Source of the DNA: Owenia fusiformis
Lineage: Eukaryota > Annelida > Polychaeta > Sabellida > Oweniidae
DNA: 64,000 nt
Direction of reading: 5' to 3'
Assembly: GCA_903813345.2 (NCBI GenBank)
Contig: CAIIXF020000002.1
Span: 18,118,813 to 18,182,812, forward strand
Positions within the stretch are counted from its first letter, which is position 1. Every line of letters starts with the position of its first letter. Below the pieces are notes generated by a model, which was given only the letters and a program-made list of their open reading frames with translations, had not been told where the DNA came from and ran no database searches. Positions 25,852 through 54,586 of this stretch are shown here, in pieces. Position numbers and translations under genes: made by a program.

Positions 25852-28800
25852 ATGGAACATAACGCTACCAAACTGGACGGTGACGAAGAAAAAAAGCGGG
25901 GAATAAGTACTTATTTTAAAAGGTAGGTCCTCTGATTGGCATACAAGACTGCAGTTTAACTATTGAATTCCAATTTACGCATGTTTTAACAATCTAAAGC
26001 TTTTGCATGTATTTGCATATTTTGACTTGCAATTAATATAGAATGAATGAAAATATCAACTGCAGTTGTAAGATCTGAAAGGAAACAATGACGGGAACAA
26101 GGTTTACGATATTCTAACATTTTAAGGGGGTGTCCCAGAATACTTATGTAGAAAATGAATAGGGAGGTTAAACAACACGTTTGAGAGAACTTGTGAGATT
26201 ACTATTTCATCTCAGCAGCTGTTTTCTCAGGAAAAAATGTCCTCAAAAGTGGGCAAGTAATTACTTCGGAGAACAATTATCATAAGAGGATTATAATTTT
26301 ACATAATTCTCGTACTTGTTTTTTTAAAACGTGGAACTGAACCTCCCTTCTAACTACCTGAATGAACATCAATTTATCATGCGCGAACGATCCAAAGACA
26401 CGTACGGCTACATGAATTGACAGTTTCATAAAATAAAACAGTGGAGATATGTATAAAAAACAATCTATTTTGATTTGATCTTTTCAAAAGTAATTCTACA
26501 TTAGCAATTTCATGGTCTATATTCAGCCTTTATGGGCAAAAAATACTTCAAGGTGAGATATTGTAAACATGTACGATGCACTGTACATGTATTGTATACT
26601 ATGCATTTTAAAAACAAAATAGAGAAAATAAATAAACAAAGAAAATATGGTTATGTATTTTGAATTAGAAATTTTAGATTAGTAAAAGCACAATAATTAT
26701 CGATTAGTAAATAAATGTTTTTCACAATGCCGTCAATCTGTTATTCCACCTTTAAATACATAATTGGCAATACATTTTGGACCAAACAGAAGAGCCGAAA
26801 AGGTTTAGTGTTCAACGATCGTTATTAATGAATATATCATTTTTAAAAACTATTTTTCAGGTACCGAAAAAAGATCAAACACGTCATTGACTCCCCATCC
26901 ATTCTAATTTTCGTTGCGTTTCTGGCCATATTGGACGCTACATTCGTTGTCTCCCAGCTCATTATAGATGTTATCATCGTTAGACGTAAGTATTAACAAT
27001 ATCATTACTTGAGAACATTTCGTTGAACGTCATTATTACATTCAATCAAAAGAAAGTCATATGATTTGAAGATCTTAGCGTAGATATAAAGCACTAATAG
27101 GTGATAATTATCTTAACTAACTGAGAAAAATAGAAGAAATAATAGTCATAGCATTAGCAGTAAGTTTATTGATCTAAAGAACAAGAGAGAAGAAATTATT
27201 AAATAGTTAGTTCAAAAACAAGATAACACGAATCTAGGGCTCATTATTTGTCTTGTAAGCATCATAAAGGAGTAATATGAGTCAAATATAGCATCAGCCC
27301 ACTTACCTTTTAGCAAATATTTTATTTATTGATCACCCTGTATACAGTTTTTGTTTTCTCCAAAATTATTCTATTGTATTTATCGCATTGTGTTGCGTTG
27401 CGTTGTACTATTGTAATACAATACGTTATATGTAAATTGCGATGCATTGCATTGCATTGAATTGTATTTTAGTGTCACGGGCATATTTTACAGATAATAC
27501 TAGTAAATCTTTCATACAGTTCAAGTGGACATTGGCTTATAAGACATTGCTTATCAAATCTATTAAATCTATTAATGCAAAAGAAATTATATGTAATAAT
27601 TCCATAGGTATCTGGCAATCATTGATGCGTACAGACAATATATATACGCAATATAGAAGTAAGAAAAAATCAGTTCCTGCAATCAGATCCTGAATATGTC
27701 TTTTAATCTACTTGAAAATTAATAATGTAATGATGATTTTAAGTCGAATCCAGCAGGGCTAAAATTTTGGAGGCATTTTTATTTTTTATTTTGATTTCCT
27801 CATTTTTCTTAACTATCATATAGTTTATATTATATCTGCGGTCAGAAACCTTTCTACGGTCGTCTTGGAATTTCTGTGATTAGGTAATAGCAGTCACATT
27901 TACCATGGCAGCCGTCCGGCGTATTTTGATTTTCAGGAGACATGCATAAAATCTATGGTTGCCATAAGGCTGATGATGTCGCACGGTCAGCGTAGGGCGA
28001 ATCTGCGGGTAAAGGCAGGGCAACCACACTGAGGCCATAGGTCAATTGTAACCCCTAAAATCCAAGAGCAGTCGCAGGTCAACTGTGGAACATTTCCGCG
28101 GTCTGACTATACGGCTTGTTAATTTTTACGGTAACTGCAGAAATGCAGTTATAACTCCCAAGTTAGATTTCTACGGCGAGCCCACCGCCAGTGAAATACT
28201 TGATACGCCGTACGGAGACCGTAAGGCGACCGTAGTTTACCTACGCTCGCAGTAGAAATTTACTGATTTCAAGGAACTACGTTCCACGTACAGTTGAGAT
28301 TTAAAACAATGCTCATAGCGTATAAAAACATGGAATAAATATTGGATTTGAATGATATTGAGATGTGAATTGCGCCTCAGCACATTTGCTCTACGGTGGC
28401 CGTATTTAAACTTCACAAAATCGATTTAGAAAATGCATGGTACTGCTTATCCCTATATTTCAGGCTGCATATTTACCTCGATTTTGGAAAGCTACAGTCG
28501 CCGTATGGTTGCCGTAGATCAAATGTGAATGCGACCTTAGATTTAGTGTTCATTGATACTATATTCCACAATTTACGGCGATTGAAACTCTTATACGCGT
28601 TAATTAAGACCGTATATCTGATGTAAATAAAATGATGTCATGTACCATTTTATACGATGCGCTTGCCACATTTCCTCCCCGCCTGTAATTTTCTACTTCA
28701 ACGCGCGTAAAATGAGCGTAAAATTAACCAGCGCATGTGATTGAACGCACGTAATAAAGGTAAGTGTTTGATGTCTTGACCCACGTAATTTATGTCTTAC

Positions 28801-31800
28801 AGGCGTAAACAAACGTCTGCATTCATCGGTTAGATTCGCCAACCATGAAAACAGGTTTCTACGATATGAAAACACATATATCAGAATTTTTCTTAAGAAA
28901 TACCTCCTAAAGAAACATAGTAGGTATTTCCCAAGAAAAATGCTGATATGTGTGTATAAAGACATTTAAAGGGTCAGAGTCTGTAATTCCGATGCTAAAT
29001 AAACCAAAAATATTATTTTTGAAATATATAATAATCTGAAACTGACTTTCTTCTCTGAAGATATTATATTTTGAAAAAATCCCCCAATAACCTAGCCAAG
29101 GTCTAAATTGAATTCATTACATGTTTTTATATTGAAAAGGTATTAATTCATGAAAAGGTTCAGTAAAAATGTTCAATGCTTCAAACATCTCATCCAGGTC
29201 ATTAATTGTTTCTTCAAATCATCCAGTCTTACATCAGTCTGGGACTACATTGAGGTTAAGTTAACGATGAGGACAAACCATCCTGACATGTTAAGATTCT
29301 TGTCTATTCATCTATTTTGCAAAAATAGTGCTTAACCTTTATATACCCAGAATGACGGATATGTCTGTCACGAATAAAATCAATTTGGAACCCAGAAGGA
29401 CATATATATGTCACAGAAGTTTTCACTAAAACTGCTCTAACTTTGGTAATTGCTATCCAATCTTCACAAATTATGTTTTAAAATGTATGTAATGGGTCTA
29501 TGTTTACTATTCTTATAATGACGTTAGTTTTTTCTGGTAAACAAATTAATAGCATGTCATTAGCATTACCATGGCATTACAGAAAGGTAAATATATTTAC
29601 ATAGTTAGTTAGTTCCATTGATCACACGCACAAAAGCTGGTCACGGTGAACCGATAAACCGCCAAAACGTGCTTGATCTTAGTTTCTTTCCAATAGGACA
29701 ACGACAGTTCAGAAATTTTTGCAAATCACTCGAGCGATCTTTGTTGAACTCGACTGGATACATACTTTAGCTTACCTTGGTTTAATGCTTGAAAACATGA
29801 ATATGTATTTTGAATAAGAATCTTACAATCTGTTTTCGAGATTTTAAACTAACTGCCTTAGCTTCTGGATTCGCCAGTGGCATCTGTAACCATTTGCAAT
29901 TGAACAGTAAAGCGATTTTCCCGAAAATATAATGACGATTTTTTTTTAACATATTATTTATTTCCTTCATAATCAAAAAATACACAAAATATCTACTACC
30001 AATCGCCATAGGCATTCTAGGTAGTTTAAATTACAATAGAGGATTAATTACAGTAATCATAATCATGAAAAGATTTAGTAGCTACCGCACGTCCAGGAGC
30101 ACAAGACGAAAACAATGTGGAATTTCAAAAAGGTGTAAAATACTTAGTTTTAGCAGGTTCTTAAAAGAATTATATAGTTTGTCAATTGATTTAATCCCTT
30201 TGAAAACTCCTGAACAATCAAATCACAACGTCCAAGAATATTCCCAAAATCCAAATGTTCTCTTTAATGTGCTAAATATGAACGACCATTTTGGATTTAA
30301 TTATTTCGTGTACCAAATGGACCTATTTTTTTATAAAAGGGTCTATACAATAATTAGTAATACGCAGAAGGTATATCACCGTAACAAATATTTATAGACA
30401 AAACTTTTCTTTATATATTTTTCAGGGCTTCTTGAAAAAAACATTGCTTCCACATGGACTTTATCAAACGCCCTGAAGGACGCATACCCTGCCGACTTCC
30501 ATTGCTTCGACGAGAATCATTACGATTTAGGGAATTTAGAGGATCTTGTATCTTTTCTCAACCACGGGGATGATAACCATGGAGACGATAAATACCAGGG
30601 AGATGGAGTCCATGAGGAAAGGAGGAAGCGCCACCTGCAAACTAGAAGTAAATACATTCAAGATAATCGAGTACTGTCAAGAGTTCTACGTGCTGCCATG
30701 CGAAACATGCATTCACAAGATAAGACAATAAACGGAATTCGGAACGATGAAGGACCTCCAAGTAGGCGTATTCAAAAACGTGGATCGGGGACAATCAAAA
30801 ATGACACTATCTTGGCGAAAAATTCGACATTTGAAAATCACGGGTGTCCAAATGTAACCGAAGACAATCACCATGACGGAGAGCATGATCTCGAACATAC
30901 TCTCGCGCATGCTTTTCATATAGGAAGTCTCGTTGTGCTCACTCTGATGGTATTTGAGGTAAGTATTTGTTTCCATGTGTTTTATTGGCTTGCCTACTCG
31001 TTGGCAGTATGATGTGTTTCTTAACAGTAGTATCAATACGTTATATATAGTTCATGACAACACAATTTACATTCATTTACATTACTTAACACACACTACA
31101 CAATCAAAAATGGCAAAGGAACTGAATGCTCGAACTGCCCGAAGTCTGATGAAATGCTATAAATATATTGCGCATAATTGCCCACGAAATTCATTATACA
31201 GTTGTCGAATGTGACCCAAATAACGTATGAAATGATTTCATTTTTAGAAAGTTCTACACATACAAGCTCACGGGAAAAAGATTTTCAAAGATAGGCTACA
31301 GGTAAGATTCGATGCCTCAAATCTCAATCTTCAGAATAGTTTAGAAGTACAATTACGATTAATGGCATCGAGCTGACCTTCGACTTTGAAAACAACCATT
31401 TTGGAGAGTTTTGGAAAATACAAGATCCGTCAAGGAATGATATGAGCAAATAAAAGTTAAACAATTACGTAAAATCACGAGAAAATGGCTGATTTCATAC
31501 ATTTACTATTATAACGCGGTAAACACGATACAAAAATATGTCATATTCCGCAACGAATATGGCATATTCACTTGCGGTGTATGACAGATTCACCTGCGGT
31601 ATATGGCATACACACTAACCAGTGAGAACGTGATACGGAAGTACGCAATTGTCAATTGCATCGATTGAACGAACAAGTATGAAACGTTATAAATTATTAT
31701 AATGACTACTGAATCAACAGTACTGTGTATCGAATATATTTACTTAGCAGAAGTCACCAGTCACCAATCTCGCGAAATAAACGTATTCAATCAATTCAGG

Positions 31801-34800
31801 ATTCATATATTAGTACTCGACGCACTAACTATATTAGTAATCCAGCGTAGTTTTACATTTAGAGTCGATTCTCGCAACCAATCAAATCAAAAGGCTTTCT
31901 GTATCACGTTTTCACCTGCGGTAAATGTCATATTCACCTGCGGTATATGGCATATTCCGCAAGTGATTATGACATATTCCGCAAGTAAGTATCGGGTATT
32001 CACTGGAATCAATGTATCGCATATTCACTGCGGAGTATCGCATACTCACCTGCGGAATATGCCATATACCGCAGGTGAGTATGGCATATTCACCCGTATC
32101 ACAAATACCGCGCAACCATGAATGTATGCCATATACCGCGTAACAACTATAAGCAAAACTGATGAAGAATGTGTTAATTCAACAATGTCATGCATCATCA
32201 CATGGCATCTTTTTTTGCATCAATGTATGTGTTCGACCACTTAATTCCTATGCAGATCGAATGAGAAATGTTTATTGTTAGTATTTTAAAGTTTAGTGGA
32301 TGATATTTGATCTAGAAATGACATGATTTGTTGGATAAAAACATTCGTTTTCGAATTACCTATCTTCGGCCATTTATAGGTAATAACGTATCGTAAACCC
32401 TGTAACTTAGGTAAAATACCACTTAGCGTAATTACAAACTACGTATAGGTATAGGTAAATGGGTTATTTACGCTAATATTAAATGTATGTTTTTAACTGC
32501 TACGCTTCTAAGATATGAAATCTATTGAAAAGGTCCCATGTTACCATTGCGTAAAAGTCAACCTTTTAGCTATAAATCAAGGAGATTGTGTCTCCATGAC
32601 CTCCTGCAAAAATCGTACGAGATCTCTCCGTGCATTGTCCGTTTTACGGGCGTAATAACTTTGAATACTATTTTGATGATTCACATTTAAGAAGAAAAAC
32701 ACTTAAAATGCTTAATAGGGTAACATATTTTTGAACCAGTGATAAACAAAATAATTAATCGTGAGACCATATGACCTCTCTTCAAGGTCGACTTCTTGGG
32801 AGCTAAAGAGACCGGTTTTCAGAGCCGGTTTCTAGAAGTCATTTGACAAAACCGGCTTTTTAGATAATGCAGGAACCGGCTTTTAACAGTTTATACCAAT
32901 TTGTCTAAATGCCTTCAACCAGTTATCTTGCTTGCGTTTGAGGATACATGGATAGTAATTTACCATGATGAATAAAACGCAATTGCTTTTAAAGGTGTTT
33001 GATGGATTTGTTGTGATCTTATCTTGGATCCTTGATCTGACTCTCATTGACGGGATCTGGGCATGGGCGGAAGTGGACGCAGCTTTGATCCTTATAATCA
33101 TTTCTCCTTGGAGGGTCATCCGTATTGTTAACTGTAAGTATAGAGTCGATATATATTTAGACCCTGTACATATATGTACACCTTACTTTTTCTTCTTGAG
33201 GAAGAAAACAGGTAAAATACATGTAAGGTCTTGCTGCAAAACGTGTTCAGTCTGTCACTGCAGAGCAAAAATTGCCAAATTTGTGCGTTTTTTAACTGGT
33301 CTTTACAAGGGTTGAATATTTTTGCAGGTTTTGTTATGACCTTCAAGGAGAGATATAAGATCCACATACGTCTTATTCAAAGGCAAGCACGGTCGAGTGA
33401 AAAGAAAGCAAAAGTAGCTACCAGCAAGATGACACGAATCGAGGTAAATATTCAGTTACAATAATATTAGAAAAGTTAAAAGGTTTAAGTTAAAAAGAAA
33501 ATGCTGAGATCAATCTATTGAATCAATCTATCAATCAAAAAATTATACCATACCATACATTCTTAAGATTCTAAATTAAATATATTCGAAAAGGTTGTAT
33601 AAAGTAATTTTTAATTGTATTGCTTTGTATATATTGTTGTATTGTAATGTTTTGTATTGTTATTGTAATGTATTGCATTGTTTTGCCCTTAGTGTTCTGT
33701 GCAAAACCCAAATTGTATTCATAAAATATTTCAAGAAAAAGACACTTTGCAATATGTTTTATTGGACACTTAATGTTTTTTATTTAGAGGGAGATATTGC
33801 ATCTTAGAGATCTAGCTGCAGATCATGGTGCAACTGATGAAGCGATTGAACTGTGCACTAACAAGAGTTCGGAAGGTAATCATGATTGTTTCAACATATA
33901 GTACACTAAATCTATTCTAAATGCTCGAATGCCTAAGGATACATAAATTCAAAAGTAAAATCCGATGGCGTTAATCACACTTAAATGTTTTAAGAGTTTA
34001 CATTTTTCTTTAAGCTTCTTTAATATTTCATCTTTATCCTCACAATTTGCAGTAGCAGATATTACCAGAAAACATCATCTGAATTGATGGCTCTCACCGA
34101 CGTGATTGTTTTTATCAAAGATTCATTGAATTCGGCAAAAGTCATTTGCCTTTTGCAACTAATGTACTATGTTTTCAAAGACCGATTGATCTTCCGCACC
34201 ACTTTAATTTGTGTTCATTTCAGATGAAATCACTCGCAAAACGGGAAAATACTTTAATATTATGTCACGCATTACGAATATTCTCCTAACGACGTTGACC
34301 ATGCGAAATGACGGAACGAAAAATGATGATGAAGACGACGATCCAGAACAGGGAGGTACGTACATAAAAATGAAGATAATGGGGGTACCCCTCCTTCTTT
34401 GGAGAGCTGTATGGAAGCGTCAAAAATGAAAATCACAATGATTTGGGGATAAAATTTCGCTAATTTGATTTGATTAACATTAAATTATATTTCTCAGGAC
34501 CATATTAAGAAATTGAATTAAAATTCAAAAATAAAGACTATCCAAACATACATTTTGTATAAATCTTTGTAGTGTATTGATTGGTTTGTCATAAGTAACA
34601 ACTCTTTGCTCTCAGTCTAGTTTGAACATAATTATTAACTCATAGTCAACAAGATGAGATCAATTCTTAAAGTCTTACGAACATTTTCTTATTATTGATT
34701 TAATTTTAGATGATACGCCTGAAACGCCTGGAATACGGAGATGTCTTTCTGCGGTGGAGTTGGAGGAAATTCAACATGACCTCAAGGAATGCAGGTAAAA

Positions 34801-36914
34801 TACTTATGCCAACTCCATTGGCAGTGTCTCGGAATATTATGTTGAAACTAGCACTCCAACGAAGTATATACTTTCTCGACATTCGCGCGTACACTAAACT
34901 TTCAGCGAATGTTTCCAAAGCGAAGATTGCTCACTTATGTACCATTTCATTTAGTATTAATTGTACTAAGACAAATCACTACTTCATGTGTCATATAGAT
35001 GTCAGATCACTTAAGGGCTGGGCTTTACTCAACGTTCCATTGATTTTTGATATTACTGTCAATATCATTTCTCTTTGAAATATTTGAAAGAATCTAAAGC
35101 CTGCTGCTTCACAAACCATTGAACTATGTGCCTTTTCTCTCCCCAATGAAATTGTAATACGGGTAACTTAACGAAATCGTCCAAATTGAATTATTAAACG
35201 TCCTTTGTCTTTCAGCATTGCTGTTGAGACTAGATTTGCACATCTTGATGAAACGAAAGTGCGCCCTGTAGAAACAATAGCATTTCCTGTGGAAACCATG
35301 GTACATTTTGGAGATACATCCGCACAGCCTGTAGTAACAACAGCAACGCAGTCTGAAGAAAAGAAAACACCCCCTGTATATACAATGGTACACTCAGCGG
35401 AGAAGACGGTGAATCCTATATTTACAGTCGTTCATTCTGGGAAAACGGCAACGCGCCAATCTAGACACCCTCTAGATACAAGGGAGCTCTCCCGAGAAAA
35501 TCTAAAGAAACTTATCTCTGACACGACGGTGAACTCTGGAGACAAGACAAGACATCCTGTATACACAATTGTTCACACAGGAAAAACGACGCCTCACCCT
35601 CCAAATAGAAGGGTACACTTTGGAGACAGTACTCTTCCGCCTGGAGATACAATGGTACACTCTGTGGAAATGACTGCACACCCTGTAGATACAATGGCAC
35701 AATCTGAAAAAATGACTGTACAACCGTTGAAGGAAAATAAGAAAATGACAGTGCAACCATTGAATGCAGTTGCAGACTCTAAGGCACCGACTGTACAACA
35801 GTTCAATTCAAATGTGCATTCTGATGAAACGCACCAGTTGGATACTATTGAACACTCTAAGGAGTCAACTGTGCAACCTTTGGATACAACTGTTCATCCT
35901 GGGAACACGACTGTGCAACAGTTGGATAGAACTATACATTCTGAAACGTCGAATGTACAATCATTGAATACAATCGAATGCTCTAAGGAGACAACTCTGC
36001 AACCGTTGAATAAAACTATACATTCTGATGAAACGACTGTGCAACCGTTGGACACAACTGTACATTCTGAGGAAACGACTGTGCAACCGTTGGACACAAC
36101 TGTACATTCTGAGGAAACGATTGAACAACAATTTGATGAAACTGTACATTGTGAAGACACGAATGTTCAACCATTGGATACAATGGAACAATCCAAGGAT
36201 ACAACTGTGCAACCGTTGGATACAACTGTACATTCCGAGGAGAAGACTGTGCGACCGTTGGATATAACTGTACATTCGGAAGAAACGAATGTACAACCGT
36301 TGGATACAACTGTACATTCTAATGAAACGACTGTTCAACCGCTGAATTTAACTGTAAATTCTGAGAAAACGCATGACCAACCGTTGGATACAAAGGTTAA
36401 CACTAAGAAAATAACTATTTCACAGTTGGATACGACTGTACATTCTGGAATGACTGAACAACAATTGGATAGAACTGTACATTCTGAGGAAACGACTGGA
36501 CAACCATTGGATACAAATGTACATTTTACGATTGAACAACCGTTGGATACAACTGTACATTCTAGGGAAATGACTATTCAACCGTCGGATACAAATATAC
36601 GCCCTAGGGAAACGATTGTTGAACCGTTTGATACAACTATACATCCTGGGGAAACGACTGTACATCCGTTCGATACAACTGTTCATTCTGAGGAAAGGAC
36701 TGGACAACATGTACATAAACTCGAACATTCTGGAGAACCGACTAAACACACTTTACAAAATGTGGATACAACGGTAAACTCTGCGGAAACTTCTGTACAC
36801 CCGGTAGATACAACGGCAAATTCTGGGAAAACGACAATACACCATTTGGATGCAACGGTAGACTCTGAGGAAACGATGGGACGCCCTGAACATACAGTAG
36901 TGTACTTTGAATGA
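25852..36914 (+). CDS. Hv1-type voltage-gated proton channel with giant repeat tail, paralogue A, 10 exons, 1013 aa
   Basis: Exons: 25852-25922, 26861-26985, 30426-30958, 31248-31301, 32995-33133, 33328-33443, 33788-33875, 34224-34355, 34710-34794 and 35216-36914. All junction phases agree (3042 nt). S1 (about 38-62) has the selectivity Asp in 'AILDATFVV' (Asp49) and Asp60. S2 has His230 and Glu243 at the human His140/Glu153 spacing. S3 'FDGFVVILSWILD' has Asp264 and Asp275. S4 reads 'IISPWRVIRIVN': Arg301, Arg304 and Asn307 match human R2, R3 and Asn214, but Ser298 replaces R1. A short coiled coil follows (to about 375), then acidic linkers and a 566-residue repeat tail. The S1-S2 loop is about 155 residues, His/Asp-rich, with RRKR at 131-134. 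The family conducts protons across membranes as a dimer. The start is set by equal exon-1 length (71 nt) in both paralogues. Confidence 0.88.
27840..28620. repeat. CCGTA/TACGG motif-rich island in channel A intron 2
   Basis: A relatively GC-rich block in an AT-rich intron where CTACGG, CCGTAG and close variants recur many times on both strands. It looks like an old degenerate element. No TIR or frame found. Confidence 0.35.
31514..32140. mobile_element. Palindrome-rich TIR element, copy 1
   Basis: Ends CGCGGTA and TACCGCG, with TAA on each side (31511-31513 and 32141-32143), a 3-bp target duplication as in PIF/Harbinger elements. Both arms are made of many copies of a phrase like CCGCAGGTGAATATG in both orientations. 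The unique centre is about 280 bp. An inverted copy is at 60394-61011. It lies in intron 4 of channel A. The frame running through it is an artefact. Confidence 0.78.
35216..36914 (+). repeat. Repeat-tail exon of channel A
   Basis: The last coding exon (1699 nt) encodes about 40 imperfect copies of a 12-14-residue unit such as 'TTVQPLDTTVHSEE'. The first units are more diverged ('PVETMVHFGDTSAQ'), the middle ones most regular (36010-36350), consistent with recent expansion there. It is rich in Thr, Val, Glu, Pro and His, poor in hydrophobic residues, and should be disordered and cytosolic. Long frames on the opposite strand are by-products of the repeat. Confidence 0.85.
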
Positions 36915-37110
36915 ACTGTACAGAAGTAAACTTTGAAGAAACGATGGTACACCCTGTAGATACAGTAGTGTACTTTGAATGAACTGTACAGAAGTACACT
37001 TTGAAGAAACGATGGTACACCCTGTAGATACAGTAGTGTACTTTGAATGAACTGTGCAGAAGTACACTTTGAAGAAACGATGGTACACCCTGTAGATACA
37101 GTAGTGTATT
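36901..37110. repeat. 68-bp tandem repeat across the channel A stop codon
   Basis: The phrase TGTACTTTGAATGAACTG recurs at 36901, 36969 and 37037, and a degenerate unit starts at 37105. The period is 68 bp, not a multiple of three. Each unit still contains tail-like coding words in changing frames. The stop codon TGA lies in the first unit. Confidence 0.85.
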
Positions 37111-37245
37111 TTTGAGAGACAACGGGCTATACCGTGGAAGAATCTTTTAACTTTTGGAGGAAACTGTATATATGAATATAAACAGGATATTTTAGCTCAC
37201 AACGAATTAATATATTACCTTAGTTAGCCTCTTCTGAAACTCGTA

Positions 37246-37251
37246 AATAAA
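37246..37251 (+). terminator. Candidate poly(A) signal of channel A
   Basis: AATAAA about 330 bp after the stop codon. Confidence 0.4.
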
Positions 37252-37544
37252 TAGTTTACGTATTAGCAGTCTAACAGGAATCATAGGAACTGACAGCTTC
37301 CTATATACATACGTGTATAAAACACCTGGAGATTCTGGGAATATTCTGATAAGACGTCGGATAGCATCATATCTTATCTATTGCTGTCTTATGAGAAAAT
37401 TGGAAGGAATACAACATTTACAAGCATGTAACACAACCGTTCTCGCCCTTTTGCACATAACACAAACTGTTTTGGCCATTTTGTACATTGAAGCATCTAA
37501 GTCTGTATACAGTATATTTATCATCAATCTGTTCTATATGGTCT

Positions 37545-37850
37545 TCGTACCCTAGGTTATTGTATGTGTACCCTGAATTAAGGTATTTGAACCCTGAGTT
37601 ATGGTATTTGTACAATAAATTGTGGTCTTTGTACCCTGGTATGTGTACCCTAAGTTATGGTTTTGTACCCTGAGTTATGGTATTTGTACAATAAATTGTG
37701 GTATTTGTACCCCGATTTATGGTATTTGTACTCTAAATTATGGTCTTTGTACCCTAGGTTATGGTATTTGTACCCTAAGTTATGGTATCCTTACAATAAA
37801 ATGTGGTCTTTGTACCCTATGTTATGGTCTTTGTTCCTTGAGAGTCAGAG
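37545..37850. repeat. ~21-bp minisatellite
   Basis: About 14 units like GTACCCTAAGTTATGGTATTT, with variants GTACAATAAATTGTGG. The frames across it repeat 'LYPELWYLY' words and are not a gene. Confidence 0.85.
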
Positions 37851-39902: not shown

Positions 39903-40150
39903 CAATCTTTTACCACAATATCTACGAGTGACACCCAGTTAAAGACATACATATCAAATCTTCGTTGCAATACATACAAACTGAAGGGTAGCCTTAACAA
40001 GAAATTTGGTGGCAATCCTGAATGTCCATTTTGTACAACCTCACCTATCGAGGAAGACCTATCACATTTTATTTTGAACTGTGCTTCTTTACAAAAGAAA
40101 GAGCAGAAGTGCCCAAACGTATTAATACAAATATTACTATTACCTTAAGT
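39903..40150 (+). pseudogene. LINE relic: C-terminal tail of a non-LTR retrotransposon ORF2
   Basis: About 80 codons in one frame read 'ISNLRCNTYKLKGSLNKKF', then 'CPFC' followed after 14 residues by a 'HFILNC' motif. This is the zinc-finger-like tail that follows reverse transcriptase in many LINE proteins. The frame stops upstream at 39900-39902 and downstream at about 40147, with no polymerase left, so it is a 5'-truncated dead copy. An AATAAA-containing A/T-rich stretch near 40350 may be its 3' tail. Confidence 0.65.
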
Positions 40151-43900: not shown

Positions 43901-46900
43901 CATATGAATTCCCTTTATGCCCAATCGCCCAAACGTTCTTCTGAACAGGCTAAAACTGTGCGAACAGATTGAACCAAGTTAAAACATTTTTACGATCTTG
44001 TTGTTACGAACTTCATGAACGTGATCTGATTTGAGGGTGCCCCAGACATTCGAGCCTCCTCAAAATTTTCTCCCGGCCATCCGATCTACAATTAGACAGG
44101 GTGGCAACGTCGAAAACAGATGTACATGTATATGTACTCGGATATCCTACTCGGGACGTGTCACGGGGTAGGCAACATGCATGGTCGTTGGAGAATCAAT
44201 TGCAAAAGCACGTCAATAAAACTAGAAAGACATAAAAAAAGTTACAACCCAATCTATTCATACAATATTTTGGCATCATTTTAAGGAATGTAGTGTGAAC
44301 TTGTTTACCGCGCGTATCGTAGAATAATCTGAGCATGTGTTATGCCGTTGGGTTTGTTTACGAAGATGGTCTAAGATGTGTTCCCAAAGGAACTTCTTTG
44401 GTGGATGTTATTCTCAATTTCATACAGAAAAGTACAAATTGATTTCATTTTCAGAAGCTGCTTCGCATACAAGCTTACGGCAGGAAGATTTTTAAAAGTA
44501 AATTCCAGGTAAGATTTGCAAAGACCTGACATTCCGAGCTGTCATTGTATCTCATAGTGATGTTGATTGTATCGCTTTCTACAGGATGACCCAAAAAACA
44601 AAATCCTCTTAAAATGTAATAATTTCCTAAATACTAGTCCCATCAGCCTGATTTTTCATATGCACAAATTAGAATCTACGGATGATAATATAATATCAAG
44701 TTTATTACACAAAATTGATTATTTGTGAGCATATTGAATGATCTTAAAATGTGTCCGATTTTCGGAAAATCACCATTTACACAAAAACGTATCTTAAGAT
44801 TTTAATTCCAAAGAAGACTTGAAATCAAAGGTTCATTCAATATCTTAATTGAATAATGAAAAATATGCAACGCTAAAACTCTTAATAAAAAATCAGATGA
44901 CTGAAATTCCTGGCCTCTGAACGAGATCACCTCGACGCTGCACATTGGATGCATTTTCAAGAAATCATTATTTCATTTTTGGAGGGTTCTGTTTTTTGGG
45001 TCACCATCAGTGTAGGCCTTAAGGGCCGGCCTGCTGGTCATTTCCAGCTTACTTTTGATACGGACCAGTTGTTTTTATACCTAGGTATAGAAAAATAACA
45101 TTGCAACTGGTCTGTACTTCCATTTTGACCAGCAAGTTTCAGATCCTTAGGGCATACACTGGCCACTTTCTAGACTTAGACTTACTCGGCTATTTTGCGG
45201 CATATCATAGAACATACCGATAAATTGAAATAGTATAAATTGAATTATTGAATTGTAAGACGGATCTTATAATTATATCACATCGTGTACTTTAATAACA
45301 TGCAAAGCAGGTTTAGCACAAAGTATAATATTCACTAATTTAGAACTGTACGATTATCATGACGCACGATGTTCTGTTCTGATAAATCTGATCATGGCCT
45401 GTGAATGAAGTGTTTCCCCATGTTCTTTCACTCGGGTCCCCCCGTTGGTTAAAAGCAGTGAAGACTGAGGTGCGAAGATTGTATTTTCCATGCTTTATCA
45501 CGAGGTTTCAATTTTTGAACAGATGTTTGATGGTTTTGTTGTGATCCTGTCCTGGATCCTTGATCTTGCGCTAATTGATGGGATTTGGGCGCAGTCGGAA
45601 GTGGATGCTGCGCTACTGCTTATTATTCTCCTTCCATGGCGGATCATTCGTATAATCAACTGTAAGTAATTGACAGAAAAATGCAGAACTTCTGGAATAT
45701 GTGCGTATGCACAAATGTCAAATGGTTAATGGTATACCGTAAAGACTAAAAGTGATACATAACACAGCTAAATGAAACATTTCAGAGTCAAACAAGTAAT
45801 AAGGCAACCAAACCAGAAGTATCCCAAACCAAAATCTAAACGTTTTTATATTCAAAAGTTTACCATTCATATTCTGCAGTCGTGTTTATTATGAGGTCAT
45901 GGCATCAATTTTCGTAATGCCGATTTCGACTCTTTAGTGCTTGACAATTACTCTCATATTTGATGAAGACACATATAATATTTGTTACAGGTTTTGTAAT
46001 GACGTTCAGGGAGAGGTATAGGATACAAATTCGATTAATCGAAGAGAAAATGAAGGCGAGTGAAAGAAAGGCAAAAGAAGTATCTAATAAGATGATCTGC
46101 GCAAAGGTAAAATAAAACTATTAGCAACAGGGACTTAAGATAATCTATTCAAGGTAAGAGGGAGAATAGCCCAGAGTTCTTTGATGATGGACCTGTCCTA
46201 ATGTTCCTGGTTCATCTCTGAATTCAGGGTAATTTTCTCCTCTTTTTCAAGGTGCTAGCTACAAGTACTAAGGCCGCTAGAGAATTTGATTGCGCCACCA
46301 TCTTGTTCTGAACATTATTTTCGATCGTTGACGTATGATGCTTTTTACTGCGCTTAACAAACTTTCATGCAGTACCAAAAGCGTCAGTCAGTTTGGTGAA
46401 TATACATTCGTTGCATTGGTTTTTGCTAAATCTAACAAACTCAGTGGTTTTCTTGCATCAAAATTGTATTTTAAGCATATTAGATGCACATTTCGCAATA
46501 CCCACGAAAACACCAAAAACTTGAGTTCTTCGTTATGATTCTAAATCCTGAAAGCGCGAAAATGTGTCTTTCTTGACTGCGTTACGTTTACAAATGCATC
46601 ACACACATTCGTTATGCGTTACACACTGTGTGTTTGCTATTCCAGAGAGAGATAACACATCTAAGAGATTTGGCTTCAAAACATGGCGCCACCGAGAAAG
46701 CCATTGAATTGTGCATGTTACAGTAGTGAGCTACATGCATATTATATTCTACTATATTCACCTATAGTTTAATTTGTAATGTATGTTTGCTGTATATGTT
46801 GAGCTATTCTTTATTAGAGATCTTAGGTCAAGGTCACAATGACATTATACACTGTATCTTGTAAACAGAACTGAACTGAATGACTCATTAACTCTTGACC

Positions 46901-49900
46901 ATCTAGAACATTCTGAAACTTGTAAACATTTGCTCAGATTGAATCATGTCACTAAAGATGTCCAATCAAGATGTAGTTCCAGAAAATTCGTTTCTGGATC
47001 ATTCTTTCACATTATAAAAAGAACAGCACAGTGACTCTCTTAGCAGATAATTAAGTAATCATAACTGGACATCTCAAAGGAACTAAATAAAGCAGAATTT
47101 CAAAGTTTATTCAAAAGACATCTTCTTAGCAGAAAATAACAGACACATACTGTGGGAACATTTATAACACTACAAACATACAACCTGAGGACTTTATATG
47201 GACATATATTATAACACACTCTATATACGGATTATCATATACATTCGTGGATTATCATAAACATTTGTGGATTATCATCAAACATTTGTGGATTATCATC
47301 AAACATTATTGGATACGAACATTATAGGATTACAACAAACATTATTGGATTATTACAAACATTGGAGAGCTATTAACGATTATTGAATCATTTCGTGATC
47401 TGGAACATTCTCAAGGATCATCAACGACATTTATCGACATCAAGAATAAGCCGTATCATTGATTGGACATCACTTAAGTATTAAACCTCCTTTATATTAT
47501 TGTTATATTATTTAGTTTACAAAATATAAATATATTGTTATCATATTTTAATTGCTGTTTTTACTTTCTGTTATTTTCGAACGTAACAGAAATTGGGGGC
47601 TCGTCCGGGATTCAACTACAACAAGCTAAAATTCAAATATTTCAAAATTCGAAAATTGTGAATTTATATTGTGAAGACAGCAATTAACTGAAAATGAGTT
47701 TTGAGGTTGAGACATTCTTAGAAGCGCCCTCTTTGGAGGAATTTGATGATTTAAAGAAAACTGAACTTCTGGCAATTGCGAAACATGTTGGCCTGTCAGT
47801 CAAAAGCTCATACAATAAAGGTACAATTAAAAACTTTGTACTTCAATATTTGGTCGCAGAATCACTTCTGCCTGAGGAGCCAGTCCAGCATGTCGAGCAT
47901 AATGATCCTACTAGGCTTAAAGAACTTGAATTGAGAGAGAAAGAGTTAGAAATTCAAAAAGAAAGAGAAATTAGGGAATTGAGAGAAAAAGAGTTGCAAA
48001 ATGAAAAAGAATTGAGAGTGAAAGAGTTAGAAATTCAAAAAGAAAGAGAAATTAGAGAATTGAGAGAAAAAGAGTTAGAAATGCAAAATGAAAGAGAAAA
48101 AAGAGAAAATGAAAGACAAATGAGAGAACAAGAAATTCAGAGAGAAATTGAATTAAAACGTCTTGAGATAGAAGCTCAATCCAAATCTGAGGAACATGCT
48201 ACTATGCATCAACATTTTGAAAATAGGTTTGACGCTTCAAAATTTCTCAAATTTGTACCTAAATTTCAAGAGAAAAATGTTGATAAATACTTTACACATT
48301 TTGAAAAGGTTGCTCAGAGCCTAGACTGGCCTAAATCTGCATGGCCAGTTATGCTCCAGAGTGTATTCATTGGAAAAGCAAGTGAAATATTTGCCTCTCT
48401 CTCAGGAGAAGTATGCTCTGATTATGACCTAGTTAAAAATGCAATTCTTAAAGCTTATGAACTAGTACCAGAAGCTTACAGACAAAAATTTAGAAATGCC
48501 CACAAACAGAGTGACCAAACCCATGTTGAGTTTGCTAGAGAGCAAGAGCAGCTTTTTGACAGGTGGCTTGTCTCTAAAGATGTATCTGAAGAGTTTAAAA
48601 AGCTCAGAGAGCTTATGCTAATAGAACAATTTAAAAACTGTGTTCAGTATCACATTAGAACTTACTTAGATGAACACAAGGTAGAAACTTTAAGCCAAGC
48701 TGCCACCCTGTCTGATGATTATGCTCTTACTCATAAGGGTAGTTTTATCAAGGGCAATCCTAACTTTAGAGGTTATCAAGGTAACAAACCTTCATATGAT
48801 ACAAAATCAAACCAGTCCTCATCATCAAATACATCAAACAAAGCAAAAGACCAGTCTAATTCATCACAGAGTTCTAGCTCAAAATCAGATCAATCAAAAT
48901 CGTCAGGTCCAACATCAAATGTCACCTGTAACTATTGTAAAAAGCCTGGTCATCTTATTTCTGAATGCTATAGGATTAAGAATAGAAGAGAGATGTCTGG
49001 TTCTGCTCATTCAAATGGTTGTGCTACAGTTCCCATTTCAAGAAAGCCCATTGTTTGGGATTCATATACTCATACTGAGAAATCTACTCATGGTGATATT
49101 ATGGAGGATTATAAGCCTTTCATGTCCGAAGGATCTGTGTCACTGTCAAGTGATGGTACCAATTCAAAGCCAATTAAGATTCTTAGAGACACGGGTGCAT
49201 CTCAGACTTTGTTGTTAGAAGGCGTCCTTCCTTTATCTGAGGAGTCATTCACAGGTACCCATATTTTGATGCAAGGCATTGAATTAGGATTTACTAAAGT
49301 TCCCCTCCATCGTATTCATATCACATCAGAGTTAGTCAAAGGGCCAGTTATTGTTGGTGTTAGGCCACAACTTCCTGTTGAAGGAGTCGCATTGCTTTTA
49401 GGCAATGATTTAGCTGGGGGTAAGGTATCATTAGACCCCATTGTTTCTGATCAGCCTTGTTCTATTGAGGATTCTGTCCAAGAGGACTCTGATATATATC
49501 CTGCTTGTGCTGTTACTAGGGCTATGGCTAAAAAGTTAGCTGATAGCGGGGATTCGTCTGTGGGAGATGACTTTGATAGTGGGTTTTTAAGCTCCTTGTT
49601 TGATGATGAATGTCACTCACCACTTGTTAAAGATGATCCTTATCCTATTTTAAAGGCAAATTCTTCATTGAAACAGCCTTCTGTTCGAGCCAAGCAGTCA
49701 TCTATTGAGGCAAATTCTTCATTGAAAAAGCCTATTGCCAGAGGTGAATCACCTTCTGAGCAGGATCACTATTTTAATGCGGTTTCGCCCGCTCTTGCTA
49801 GTCCTGATGAAGTTCCATCTTCTTCTGCTAGTGTTCATGAGGTTACATCCTCTTCTAGTTCTGAGGTTTCATCCTCTATTTCTGATAGTGATTCTTTGAA

Positions 49901-52900
49901 AAATGATCCTCATTCTAAACACATGTTAATTTATGAACAAGAGCATGATCCATCACTCATTGATCTTCATAAAAGATGTCTTACTATTGATGAAGCTATC
50001 AAGGTCCCTGTTTGTTTCTACAAAAAGGATGGCATATTAATGCGAAAGTGGAGACCCCCTGAAGCTTCCCCTGAAGATGATTGGGCAATTGTACATCAAA
50101 TTGTTGTCCCAAAATCATATCATAAGGAAATCTTGAGTCTAGCTCATGATTTTCCCATGGCAGGTCATTTAGGAGTAACTAAAACATACCATAAAATACT
50201 CAATCATTTCTATTGGCCCAAATTAAAACAAGATGTTCAAGAGTATTGTACGTCTTGTTACACATGTCAAATGGTAGGGAAACCTAACCAGGAAATCTCA
50301 ATTGCTCCTTTACAACTTATACCTGCATTTGATGAACCATTCAGTAAGGTTCTTATTGACTGTGTTGGTCCATTACCAAAAACAAAATCTGATAGTCAAT
50401 ATCTGCTCACTATTCTATCTATGACCACACAGTTTCCAACAATAAAATCACTCCTCATGCTTAGAAATAGCAAAACCAAGTATATTGTGAAAACACAAAT
50501 CAACAATTCCACATTAGTTGAGCTACCAAAGGAGCTCATATCTGACTTACAATCTAACTCAGTGATGAATGATTTCATTTGCATTGATAAAACTACTCCT
50601 GTGAGGTGTAGAGAGCTACATATGATGAAAAGGTATGTTGAGCGTGATAAAATTTCTTTACTCAACATGAGCTTGAGCTTGTGCTCTTAGCTCGTAGGCC
50701 AAACTTGTATGTCAATGACAACTATACATGTATGTTATTCAAGAGTCAGATATTGTAAATTATAATGATTAACTCATGAAGATTATATTATATGGTAGGC
50801 AAATTAGAGATTTGTGATAACTGTCACTTTATTTTAACAATATATAAAAACATTTGCCTAAATAGTGAAATTGATATTATATGAACTACAAGAATGTTTC
50901 TAGATTATGTGAGCATTATAGGTAATCTTTAAATAGTGTCACAAGATTACTTGATAACATCAGAGTGTACTATTAGAAATACTTACATAAGATCATGTGA
51001 TAATTTAAAACATTGTACTAGTTTAGTGTTTGTCAGACTCAAAAATGTATGCTATTGTACATGTTATATGATCTATTGCGTGTATTGTATTTATGACTTA
51101 ATGCATAACTTATGTAGATACTATTGTAGTATATGATTACAAGAACATTATATGTTATTAGATTGTACTCACACTGTAACGATAGAAAGTATTAAATACT
51201 TGTAAACATACTGCACATAAAAAGACTATTGTAAACAAATATTATGTAAGTCTCAACCTCACTTTTAGAAATTGTAACGCTCGCTACTCAAGATATTATT
51301 GTAAAAGTTTTTCATTGCATTCAAAACTTTTCTTTTAAGGAGGGAGGTGTTACAGTAGTGAGCTACATGCATATTATATTCTACTATATTCACCTATAGT
51401 TTAATTTGTAATGTATGTTTGCTGTATATGTTGAGCTATTCTTTATTAGAGATCTTAGGTCAAGGTCACAATGACATTACACACTGTATCTTGTAAACAG
51501 AACTGAACTGAATGACTCATTAACTCTTGACCATCTAGAACATTCTGAAACTTGTAAACATTTGCTCAGATTGAATCATGTCACTAAAGATGTCCAATCA
51601 AGATGTAGTTCCAGAAAATTCGTTTCTGGATCATTCTTTCACATTATAAAAAGAACAGCACAGTGACTCTCTTAGCAGATAATTAAGTAATCATAACTGG
51701 ACATCTCAAAGGAACTAAATAAAGCAGAATTTCAAAGTTTATTCAAAAGACATCTTCTTAGCAGAAAATAACAGACACATACTGTGGGAACATTTATAAC
51801 ACTACAAACATACAACCTGAGGACTTTATATGGACATATATTATAACACACTCTATATACGGATTATCATATACATTCGTGGATTATCATAAACATTTGT
51901 GGATTATCATCAAACATTTGTGGATTATCATCAAACATTATTGGATACGAACATTATAGGATTACAACAAACATTATTGGATTATTACAAACATTGGAGA
52001 GCTATTAACGATTATTGAATCATTTCGTGATCTGGAACATTCTCAAGGATCATCAACGACATTTATCGACATCAAGAATAAGCCGTATCATTGATTGGAC
52101 ATCACTTAAGTATTAAACCTCCTTTATATTATTGTTATATTATTTAGTTTACAAAATATAAATATATTGTTATCATATTTTAATTGCTGTTTTTACTTTC
52201 TGTTATTTTCGAACGTAACAGAAATTGAATTTTCTGGAACTACATCTTGATTGGACATCTTTAGTGACATGATTCAATCTGAGCAAATGTTTACAAGTTT
52301 CAGAATGTTCTAGATGGTCAAGAGTTAATGAGTCATTCAGTTCAGTTCTGTTTACAAGATACAGTGTATAATGTCATTGTGACCTTGACCTAAGATCTCT
52401 AATAAAGAATAGCTCAACATATACAGCAAACATACATTACAAATTAAACTATAGGTGAATATAGTAGAATATAATATGCATGTAGCTCACTACTGTAACA
52501 TGCACTAAGAATTCCAAAGGTAGGTCAACCTACGTCGGCTGATAATGCATTCAATAAATACTATAGTATACACGTCTTTCGTATATACGCACACAAAGAT
52601 ACAGTAGCTCGGCCCATGGCTGCCTTTGCAGTGCCATCTTTGTGTCGCCTTGTTCATTATTCATACGCAAGGCGAATTCGTTTTTTTCAGCTACAGTGGG
52701 TTTAAGCTTGTATGTAAAATCGAAACGCCAACCTATTCGTATGACCAATCGCCCATACAAATGCATCGTTTAAATATTTTCCGTTCATGTTAAGGTTGTG
52801 AAAAACATTGCACGCTTAAACTCCCTAATCATTTGTAGCCGAGACGGCCATTGTATTTTGTGTACATTTCAGATTCACTCAGTCGTAAAACTGGAATGTA

Positions 52901-54586
52901 CCTTCATAGCATGTCGATGATTACCAATATTCTCCAAACAACGTTCTCTCACCATACAGATGAAACAGAAGATGAACATAATGACTCGAAACCATCAGGT
53001 GTGTACAAAACGTCTGAAACCCAAATTGTCAAAAATTGTCGGTTTTCAGTCAAGGGGATGCGATCGCGGCATAAGCGAGCCAAAAACAGATATTTGTTTT
53101 GAATTTTACAAAGAGTGGTGCAACTTCCTTCAAAATTGAGCAAGAAGCGTCAAATAAAAAGGATTTTAAAGTTATTTTATTTTATCTAGTGGTTGTATTT
53201 TGGTTATTTTGGGGGGTTATTTTCGCACCCCTCGCCTCCCCTGGCTACGCCTATGATATGTTATAATATATCTGTTGTGGGATCCAAAGTCTCTACCATC
53301 CCTTGTAATAGAGAACTTAAGATAAACTGATAAAGAGACTCTGATTAATAAAAATCTATGTATATCTTTTCTTAAGAGAAATTGTACGTAAACCTATATA
53401 GCTGAGGTCCTGTATTTACTTAACATAATTATGAATCTGTGCACAAGTCCTCTAAAACATGAAGCTTAAATCGGTAACATCATATAAACGTATCTTACGA
53501 TTTTATAATGTCCGAGTCTGTTCTTTTCAGAAGGTACGCCTAAGTCTATTATACAACCTGAAAAGCATCGGGAAGAAATTCAAAATGGATTCAAGGAGAT
53601 ATGCAGGTAAAACAATTGTTACATTGGCATGGAGTTGTCAACAATTCACATTATGAAAGATGTTATATGACTATCGACTGAACTGAATTCGAAGCAAAAA
53701 CGTACCTCTATGTTTAAACAAAGAAAGCATTTTCAGTAAAAAGTAAATTTTCACGTGAAATTCGTCTTTGTTTTTCAGTATTGGGGTAGAGACTTCAGTT
53801 GTACATGTTAATGAAACAAGTGCACATCCTGACGAAACAATAGTGCAACCTGATAAAACAATGGTACAACCTTCTGAAACAATGGTACAGCCTGACAAAA
53901 CAATGGTACAACCTGATAAAACTATGGTACAACCTGATAAAACAATGGTACAACCTTCTGAAACAATGGTACAACCTGACAAAACAATGGTACAACCTGA
54001 TAAAACAATGGTACAACCTGATAAAACAATTGAAGGACCTTCTGGAACAATGGAACAAACTGTGGAAACAAGCGTAAAACCTGCAAAAACAATGGTTCAA
54101 TCTGTAAAGACAATTGAACAACCTACAGAAACAACGTTTGAACCTGTAGAAACGACGGTTCAACCTTTAGAAACAATGGTTCAACCCCTAGACGCAATGG
54201 AAGAACCTATAAAAACAAACTTAAAACCTATAGAAACAGCGATGCTGCCTGTAGAAACAATGATTCAACCTGTAGAAAAAACGGTTCAACATGAAGACAC
54301 AATGGTAAGACCTTTAGAAACAAAAGTAAAACCTGAAGAAACAGCGATGCAGGCTGTAGAAACAATTGCTCAACCTGTAGAACCAATAGAAAAAATGATA
54401 AAGCCCGTGGAATCAATGGCACAACCTTTAGAAATTATGACACAATCTGCAAAAACACCAGTAAAACCTGTAGAAACAATGGGCCAACCTGTAAAAACAA
54501 TTGAACAGCCTTTACAATCAACGGCACAACCTACAAATGCAATGGCACAAACTGCAGAAACAACAGTGCATTCTGGAAACAAATAG
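40926..54586 (+). CDS. Hv1-type proton channel paralogue B, exon 7 interrupted by an LTR element
   Basis: Exons: 40926-40996, 42027-42151, 43333-43889, 44455-44508, 45523-45661, 45991-46106, 46646-46715 plus 52505-52519 (one exon split by the insertion), 52873-52998, 53531-53606 and 53779-54586. Every phase matches paralogue A; without the insertion there are 2157 nt (718 aa). Key residues are conserved: S1 'AILDASFVV', S2 His238 and Glu251, S3 'FDGFVVILSWILD', S4 'ILLPWRIIRIIN', where Leu306 takes the place of R1 and Arg309/Arg312 are kept. The extracellular loop has RKKR at 135-138. As it stands, reading from exon 7 enters the LTR and meets TAG after three codons, giving about 380 residues: the full voltage sensor and coiled coil but no tail. 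Whether that product is made is unknown. The allele may not be fixed. Confidence 0.85.
43074..43092. repeat. C19 homopolymer
   Basis: A run of 19 cytosines just upstream of exon 3 of channel B. Another C run lies at 42181-42190. Length is likely variable and hard to sequence. Confidence 0.9.
45008..45161. mobile_element. 154-bp fold-back MITE
   Basis: The left end CAGTGTAGGCCTTAAGG pairs with CCTTAGGGCATACACTG at the right. Inner segments 'ctgctggtca...ttccagctt' and 'gaccagttg' are also mirrored, so nearly the whole element folds into one hairpin. It lies in intron 4 of channel B. No target duplication found. Confidence 0.65.
46646..46715 (+). CDS. Channel B exon 7, left part
   Basis: Starts after a TTCCAG acceptor and encodes a coiled-coil segment ending 'AIELC', parallel to 'REILHLRDLAADHGATDEA' and following residues in paralogue A. 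The last four bases, TGCA, are the left target duplication of the LTR element. Confidence 0.85.
46716..47588 (+). repeat. Left LTR
   Basis: 873 bp, TGTTACAG...CGTAACA. It contains a TATAAAAA box at 47013-47020 and AATAAA at 47086-47091, placing R between them, and short tandem repeats of 'GGATTATCATCAAACATT' type at about 47230-47360. Confidence 0.92.
47594..47611 (+). other. Primer binding site, tRNA-Pro type
   Basis: TGGGGGCTCGTCCGGGAT, five bases after the LTR. This 18-mer is the well-known complement of the tRNA-Pro 3' end used by several retroelements. Confidence 0.88.
47694..50690 (+). CDS. Retroelement gag-protease-integrase fusion, RT/RNase H missing, 998 aa
   Basis: One open frame. 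Residues 1-75: N-terminal domain. About 80-165: coiled coil of Glu/Arg/Lys/Leu heptads. About 180-350: capsid-like domain with the helical pattern of Gypsy gag. A CCHC zinc knuckle (CNYCKKPGHLISECYR) lies near 412-427. The aspartic protease motif DTGA is near 499. Normally reverse transcriptase and RNase H follow the 'ACAVTRAMAKK' linker. Here a Ser-rich stretch leads directly to the integrase HHCC zinc finger (near 825-865) and the first part of the integrase core around one acidic residue near 889, after which the sequence diverges and ends. The polymerase and most of the catalytic core are absent, so it depends on other elements. The frame has no internal stop. Confidence 0.85.
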   Translation: MSFEVETFLEAPSLEEFDDLKKTELLAIAKHVGLSVKSSYNKGTIKNFVLQYLVAESLLPEEPVQHVEHNDPTRLKELELREKELEIQKEREIRELREKELQNEKELRVKELEIQKEREIRELREKELEMQNEREKRENERQMREQEIQREIELKRLEIEAQSKSEEHATMHQHFENRFDASKFLKFVPKFQEKNVDKYFTHFEKVAQSLDWPKSAWPVMLQSVFIGKASEIFASLSGEVCSDYDLVKNAILKAYELVPEAYRQKFRNAHKQSDQTHVEFAREQEQLFDRWLVSKDVSEEFKKLRELMLIEQFKNCVQYHIRTYLDEHKVETLSQAATLSDDYALTHKGSFIKGNPNFRGYQGNKPSYDTKSNQSSSSNTSNKAKDQSNSSQSSSSKSDQSKSSGPTSNVTCNYCKKPGHLISECYRIKNRREMSGSAHSNGCATVPISRKPIVWDSYTHTEKSTHGDIMEDYKPFMSEGSVSLSSDGTNSKPIKILRDTGASQTLLLEGVLPLSEESFTGTHILMQGIELGFTKVPLHRIHITSELVKGPVIVGVRPQLPVEGVALLLGNDLAGGKVSLDPIVSDQPCSIEDSVQEDSDIYPACAVTRAMAKKLADSGDSSVGDDFDSGFLSSLFDDECHSPLVKDDPYPILKANSSLKQPSVRAKQSSIEANSSLKKPIARGESPSEQDHYFNAVSPALASPDEVPSSSASVHEVTSSSSSEVSSSISDSDSLKNDPHSKHMLIYEQEHDPSLIDLHKRCLTIDEAIKVPVCFYKKDGILMRKWRPPEASPEDDWAIVHQIVVPKSYHKEILSLAHDFPMAGHLGVTKTYHKILNHFYWPKLKQDVQEYCTSCYTCQMVGKPNQEISIAPLQLIPAFDEPFSKVLIDCVGPLPKTKSDSQYLLTILSMTTQFPTIKSLLMLRNSKTKYIVKTQINNSTLVELPKELISDLQSNSVMNDFICIDKTTPVRCRELHMMKRYVERDKISLLNMSLSLCS
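50691..51335. other. Retroelement 3' non-coding stretch
   Basis: AT-rich, no frame. The region between the truncated integrase and the polypurine tract. Confidence 0.6.
51336..51347 (+). other. Polypurine tract
   Basis: TAAGGAGGGAGG-type purine run ending at the base before the right LTR, the usual plus-strand primer. Confidence 0.85.
51348..52220 (+). repeat. Right LTR
   Basis: 873 bp, same length as the left LTR; one substitution seen (TATAC versus CACAC context, near 46859 and 51491). Confidence 0.92.
52227..52500 (-). repeat. Inverted LTR fragment (first 274 bp of the LTR)
   Basis: Reverse complement of LTR positions 1-274, joined to the right LTR through GAAATT with GAATT-like microhomology at the join. 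It ends CTGTAACA followed by the TGCA duplication. Confidence 0.9.
52505..52519 (+). CDS. Channel B exon 7, right part
   Basis: Fifteen bases from the right target duplication to a GTAGGT donor. Together with 46646-46715 they form an 85-nt exon with the same phase as the 88-nt exon 7 of paralogue A. Confidence 0.8.
52696..52826. mobile_element. 131-bp MITE, copy 2
   Basis: Same element as at 1179-1309 and the same length, sharing e.g. AAAATCGAAACGCCAACCTA. It lies in intron 7 of channel B. Confidence 0.75.
53779..54586 (+). repeat. Repeat-tail exon of channel B
   Basis: The last coding exon (808 nt, stop TAG). It begins like that of paralogue A (Ser-Ile-x-Val-Glu-Thr) and then runs into about 38 seven-residue units such as 'TMVQPDK', 'TMVQPSE' and 'TTVQPLE' (21-bp unit). 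It ends 'TTVHSGNK'. The Thr-x-Val-Gln-Pro core is shared with A, but the unit is half as long, so the two tails expanded separately. Confidence 0.85.

Follow-up and report, generated by a model that had tools for sequence, protein, structure and literature searches.

Two tandem genes, A and B, in a 64,000-nucleotide stretch (the window, G000:C2:18118813-18182812) of the 498-Mb genome of Owenia fusiformis form a real pair belonging to a known, unconventional family of voltage-gated proton channels, and each ends in a repeat tail of a kind that was not found described. It appears fairly probable, as a joint reading of the sequence, that A and B are tandem, paralogous HV3-type channels, their current being a prediction, and that their tails are loosely constrained cytosolic bulk. 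The tail merits less excitement than the initial annotation gave it, while the long loop between the first two transmembrane segments merits more. No role is assigned to the large loops and intracellular parts of HV3 channels in the available part of a review of the family (PMC10377628), and testable readings are offered here for both.

Gene models and channel family

Gene A comprises ten exons at 25843-36914 on the plus strand, with gt-ag boundaries at every intron, and encodes 1016 residues. Exon 1 (25843..25922), which carries the start codon, a gt donor, and an open frame, is also present on contig C124; the start previously placed at 25852 is the second in-frame ATG. Exon 2 (26861..26985) encodes S1 with the selectivity-filter Asp (AILDATFVVSQ), as placed by alignment to the structures 3wkv and 5oqk. 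Exon 3 (30426..30958) encodes the long S1–S2 loop (Cys, RRKR, QKR, Cys-NVT, and a His-rich stretch) and most of S2, exon 4 (31248..31301) the S2–S3 link, and exon 5 (32995..33133) S3 and S4, with SPWRVIR at 33103-33123. The end of S4 and a presumed coiled coil lie in exon 6 (33328..33443), which is followed by exon 7 (33788..33875, 88 bases) and by two linker exons, exon 8 (34224..34355), with a homologous exon at loci L016 and L017, and exon 9 (34710..34794). Exons 6 and 7 look helical by eye and had no sequence match in PDB. Exon 10 (35216..36914) encodes the repeat tail of 75 heptads and stops at TGA.

Gene B (40926-54586, plus strand) has ten exons homologous to those of gene A, with equal phases and similar, not identical, sizes, and the gene models thus bear out the matching structures first noted for the pair. 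Exon 1 (40926..40996) is followed by exon 2 (42027..42151), encoding S1 with its Asp (AILDASF), exon 3 (43333..43889), encoding the S1–S2 loop (RKKR, KKR, Cys-NIT, and a His-rich stretch) and most of S2, exon 4 (44455..44508), exon 5 (45523..45661), encoding S3 and S4 (LPWRIIRIIN), and exon 6 (45991..46106). Exon 7 is interrupted and lies at 46646..46715 (5′ part) and 52501..52519 (3′ part). It is followed by exons 8 (52873..52998) and 9 (53531..53606) and by exon 10 (53779..54586), which encodes a repeat tail of 37 heptads and stops at TAG.

The genome search returned at least eight HV-like loci besides C124, among which A, B, and L016–L019 carry a PWR motif and L031 and L032 lack it. In the tree, A groups with B at 87/88, which is moderate support; no branch reaches the tree's own mark for strong support. 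The closest solved relatives of A are the Hv1 structures 3wkv (E 5.6e-8) and 5oqk (E 1.1e-5), and the channel part scores 18.1 bits against Pfam Ion_trans, under the 25-bit cut-off. The S1 Asp is kept in both genes (AILDATF in A, AILDASF in B), that of A being aligned with the Hv1 S1 Asp. The RxWRxxR of conventional Hv1 S4 is absent from A and B, and the S4 motif is xPWRxxR, namely SPWRVIR in A, LPWRIIR in B, and LPWRVIR in L016, L017, L018, and L019. The first S4 Arg (R1) is therefore lost, with Ser in A and Leu in B, and Pro precedes the Trp. At the R1 place (window 33103-33123), Ser is seen in A alone and Leu in the other five HV3-type loci. A Met in A is aligned to the human gasket Phe, which we take to be number 150, and Met also occupies this place in B, L016, L017, L018, and L019, where the exon-3 ends were read by eye. 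A and B have in common with conventional Hv1 (HVCN1; 3wkv, 5oqk) a pore-less voltage sensor, the S1 Asp, the S4 Trp, and the second and third Arg, and they differ from it in the absence of R1, the Met for Phe150, the length of the loop (over 150 residues), and the presence of a long tail.

With regard to size, exon 3 encodes 177 (A) or 185 (B) residues, of which the last 22 belong to S2, and the S1–S2 loop exceeds 150 residues in both. The three N-glycosylation sequons in the loop of A and the two in that of B are consistent with an outer loop. The intracellular part is also large, with about 705 residues after exon 5 in A; that of B is large on C124 and shortened on the window haplotype. Protein A is 1016 residues long and protein B, as encoded on C124, 696, compared with 200-250 for the small proteins of the molluscan conventional HV group, as described in the available part of PMC10377628.

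According to the same part of that review, unconventional HV3 channels are characterized by xPWRxxR, very large S1–S2 loops, and large intracellular domains; AcHV3 of Aplysia leaks protons in the closed state and is weakly voltage-dependent, and in human HV1 changes of the hydrophobic gasket cause leak (PMC10377628). A and B share with AcHV3 the S1 Asp, xPWRxxR, the very large S1–S2 loop, and the large intracellular parts, and we infer that both would leak protons and respond weakly to voltage. The contrast drawn in the initial annotation with known Hv1 proteins as short is not supported, because a very large loop and extensive intracellular domains had already been reported for the HV3 family. 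Compared with AcHV3 by description, A and B differ in ending in heptad repeat tails, and A in having Ser, not Leu, at R1. The lancelet HV channel likewise has a large C-terminal extension, a domain of unknown function, for which the description reports no repeats; the word "repeat" occurs 0 times in the review (PMC10377628).

Two haplotypes of the gene pair

Contig C124 is a second haplotype of this region, since aligned blocks keep the same order across it; a neighbouring 1.6-kb frame matches C124 at 98%. It was tacitly assumed at first that both genes are intact; however, on the window haplotype gene B is broken by an LTR retrotransposon in exon 7 (46716..52500, plus strand), for which C124 has the empty site. 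The element is 5.8 kb long, with LTRs at 46716-47595 and 51348-52227 (880 bp each, 1 mismatch), and this near-identity points to a recent insertion. It contains a long frame at 47688-50690 and, at its 3′ end, an extra inverted LTR piece (52219-52500). TGCA is present at both edges, its repeated copy forming the first four bases of the 3′ part of exon 7. When the long frame was read by eye, gag and a CCHC knuckle could be made out along with parts resembling a protease and an integrase, but no reverse transcriptase was evident in between.

The frame of gene B in the window ends in ...AIELC MLQ*, ahead of exons 8-10, at a stop brought by the element. On C124, exon 7 is uninterrupted, with 85 bases, and the gene has an open frame of 696 residues, tail included. 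By these gene models, the B tail is joined to the channel on C124 and severed on the window haplotype, unless splicing rescues it; skipping exon 7 would shift the frame, as the intact exon has 85 bases. The window haplotype would yield at most a tailless channel from gene B, the other haplotype being whole, and the insertion thus provides a natural allele pair, one with the B tail and one apparently without. Intron 6 of gene A is longer on C124 than in the window, by about 6.8 kb of extra sequence (C124 ~359619 to 366429).

The repeat tail

The tails comprise 565 (A) and 268 (B) full codons plus a split codon, exon 10 being entered in phase 2, in agreement with the 566 and 269 residues first counted. 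Both tails are built of heptads in one register, T-x-V-[QH]-[PS]-x-[DEK], with 75 units making up 93% of tail A and 37 units 97% of tail B. The 14-residue unit first proposed for A stands as a dimer of the heptad, TTVHSEE-like units alternating with TTVQPLD-like ones, and the proposed difference in unit between A and B is one of level; the units of B are TMVQPVE-like. The tails are acidic and Thr-rich, as had been described, with pI 5.2 (A) and 4.6 (B), and 14 of their first 28 residues are identical, which upholds a shared start followed by separate expansion. His occurs 39 times in the 565 residues of tail A and 4 times in the 268 of tail B. Pfam matches of the tail, to coiled-coil and other families, all fell under the family cut-offs, and a single-sequence structure model of tail A (mean pLDDT 33.9, many short strands at very low confidence) was uninformative and gave no support to the disorder first proposed for the tail.

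In a DNA search that skipped very common words, tail DNA was found solely at A and B, on both haplotypes (C2 and C124), and the idea that it is a dispersed repeat was rejected on that ground. The last exons of the other HV3-type loci were located by eye: in L016 and L017 the coding sequence stops soon after exon 8, with no repeat seen, and in L018 and L019 the C-terminus is of a different kind in the part that was read. On this distribution, the tail exon was probably acquired by the ancestor that A and B share. As a side observation, L018 (with L030) and L019 have a common C-terminal motif, RRDSFDG..FWVDPE, a possible basophilic-kinase site.

Heptads of this kind are more widespread at the protein level. 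A search with a 76-residue composite of tail heptads gave at least 133 matches (150 of 440 candidates scored); among the 133 listed, 33 fall in A and B and 100 elsewhere, at 16-47% identity and with a best E of 2.5e-8 for those elsewhere. The heptad runs IQPSTQ(A), TSIQPTQ, and STQAIQP occur in three other frames, at L034 (G000:C10:12591900-12592500), L035 (G000:C12:5309000-5310100), and L036 (G000:C10:33791700-33792600), partly followed by a hydrophobic, membrane-like segment. Runs of 7-residue Thr/Gln/Pro units thus recur in the genome, and we take those outside A and B to be separate expansions.

In the fairly probable reading stated at the outset, the tail would follow the presumed dimerising helix into the cytosol and serve as an entropic spacer or tether through its bulk properties, namely length, acidity, and richness in Thr and Pro. 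It would not be a row of precise binding sites; frame and make-up would be selected and residues hardly at all. The main rival is mere tolerance, in which the ancestral C-terminus was extended and a 21-bp unit amplified in frame, giving a by-product with no function; this is somewhat unlikely.

Several findings favour the first reading or speak against simple tolerance. The tail frame has no stop, compared with 27 and 47 stops in the other two forward frames of A and 26 and 23 in those of B. The units are off consensus at 528/1575 sites in A and 171/777 in B, yet no in-frame stop has arisen, for which naive estimates are 1.6e-8 (A) and 9.6e-4 (B). Both genes keep the tail frame open on both haplotypes (open frame of 574 for A on C124). 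Exon lengths, compared between haplotypes for all exons except A exon 1 and B exon 7, differ in four cases, all in B, by 18, 3, 84, and 3 bases, each a multiple of three. Moreover, the two genes on C124 differ by a dS of at least 1.07 in all five regions compared; both tails have therefore long been open, and the tail has been retained in both paralogues at such divergence. Finally, the tail A units have a pN/pS of 0.73, whereas neutral simulation gave 0.97 and none of 100 runs came out as low, which indicates weak purifying selection, and thus the residues of tail A are not entirely free. The heptad segmentation behind this ratio favours similar residues, but tail B gave 1.01 under the same procedure.

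On the other hand, other findings suit tolerance. In tail B the pN/pS of 1.01 comes with no codon-position signal. The length of tail B differs between haplotypes by 84 and 3 bp. Between haplotypes, the tails show 17.5 non-synonymous and 4.5 synonymous substitutions in A and 35.5 and 7.5 in B, whereas the bodies show 2 and 10 in A (exons 2-9, exon 1 being left out of the codon counts) and 10 and 11 in B (body taken as exons 1-6). The tail and body ratios differ in a pooled Fisher test (p 3.5e-5, halves rounded to whole numbers), while the 53 of 65 tail substitutions that are non-synonymous do not differ from the neutral expectation of 77% (p 0.46); these counts suit the reading as loosely constrained bulk as well. 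Amplification also runs past the stop of gene A, where tandem 68-bp units, whose length is not divisible by 3, span and extend beyond it (36858..37112, plus strand), with more matches downstream of the stop on C124.

Two further points count against the reading as cytosolic bulk: repeat turnover might by itself keep stops out, and heptad growth, being seen elsewhere in the genome, is not special to these channels. The runs in other frames slightly lowered our confidence in that reading and raised that in a tolerated by-product. Taken together, we infer that between haplotypes the openness of the tail is kept and its residues mostly are not, with frame and general make-up under selection. Entropic bulk or a tether is compatible with these data.

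It is improbable that each heptad serves as a binding or kinase motif, making the tail a multivalent scaffold or a phospho-platform. Such a role would suit the 75 and 37 near-periodic units, in which Thr, Val, Gln/His, Pro/Ser, and acidic residues recur at set positions, as well as the weak residue constraint in tail A, but the B units look neutral and residues turn over neutrally between haplotypes. The kinase-target or precise binding role suggested in the initial annotation is weakened by this turnover, weak constraint being confined to the older units of tail A. It is very improbable that tail A buffers protons locally or senses pH through His placed near acidic residues beside the proton pathway. 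Alternate heptads of tail A do carry His, at position 4 in 29 of the 75 units, but tail B is so poor in His that buffering would not be the function common to A and B. Least probable is that exon 10 stands outside the channel messenger, as a separate gene or untranslated, and the former was rejected because the same phase 2 and canonical acceptor recur in two paralogues and two haplotypes; the open frame and in-frame indels also oppose it.

The S1–S2 loop and other features of the window

The loop before S2 comprises 155 residues in A and 163 in B. Five complete HV3-type loops were available from the six loci, at window 30428-30958 (A) and 43335-43889 (B) and at L016 1761-2339, L017 1197-1844, and L019 8027-7452 (minus strand). 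In all five, two multibasic, convertase-like sites lie between two invariant cysteines, one Cys before the first site and one after the second. The first site reads RRKR, RKKR, RKRR, RRKR, and RSRR in A, B, L016, L017, and L019, and the second ends in IQKR, IKKR, SARR, IQKR, and LTKR in the same order, with two invariant Arg at each site. The two sites enclose a segment of 50 to 69 residues, in the middle of which lie an invariant Leu-Ser and an invariant Ala.

Pairwise identity between the loops falls as low as 36/153. Of 117 gap-free columns, 19 are invariant among A, B, L016, L017, and L019, the Arg and Cys named above being included, in an alignment that also contains the C124 B loop, not counted separately, and that is possibly drawn to the basic motifs. 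The pattern R.[KR]R followed by [KR]R at least 35 residues on is present in 5/5 loops and in 0.2 to 3.5% of shuffles, loop by loop; the test takes homologous loops singly, and the product of these values, which overstates the case, was not used. Outside the five, the loop model of L018 (C4) is incomplete, with RR at the first site and the second site not found, and L032, a locus without the S4 Pro, carries a single RDKR close to the second site and lacks RxKR at the first. A structure model of the loop from two sequences (pLDDT 38.2) was uninformative.

Sequons adjoin the second loop Cys in four of the five, those of L017 lying elsewhere, and His-rich stretches precede S2 in all five, the weakest being in L016. 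Both features fit an extracellular, glycosylated loop, possibly sensing metal or pH. Convertases use multibasic sites of this kind, and the arrangement suggests an excisable segment. A tentative proposal, which we consider possible although on the doubtful side, is that the HV3 S1–S2 loop is a propeptide-bearing domain from which two-site convertase cuts would excise the 50-69 residues, with the Cys pair holding the halves together, and that the heptad tail of the tandem paralogues is kept for length and make-up and not for residues. Processing of the loop would in that case act as a switch for a leaky proton channel or tune it, or would release a peptide. An analogy may be drawn with ENaC, an unrelated channel, in which a protease removes inhibitory tracts; the likeness to A and B, in two basic sites flanking an extracellular segment, is one of motifs. 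A literature search combining proton channels with furin or convertase gave no relevant paper among the matches listed, and loop processing, if true, would be a mode of proton channel regulation not found in the literature searched.

Some other features of the window were also recorded. A frame at 5348-6319 (minus strand) matches the TauE/SafE sulfite exporter family, and a Lys/Arg/Ser-rich frame of 533 codons at 19232-20830, with no Pfam match at E 0.01, is found on C124 at 98%. A 30-bp tandem array of about 32 copies at 57379-58407, open in several frames on both strands, is likely a minisatellite. In addition, 22-bp repeats with CACCTGCGG-type units occur in both orientations at 31557-32066 and 60469-60997, and near-identical frames of 124 codons at 9701-10072 (plus strand) and 11502-11873 (minus strand) form an inverted repeat about 1.4 kb apart.
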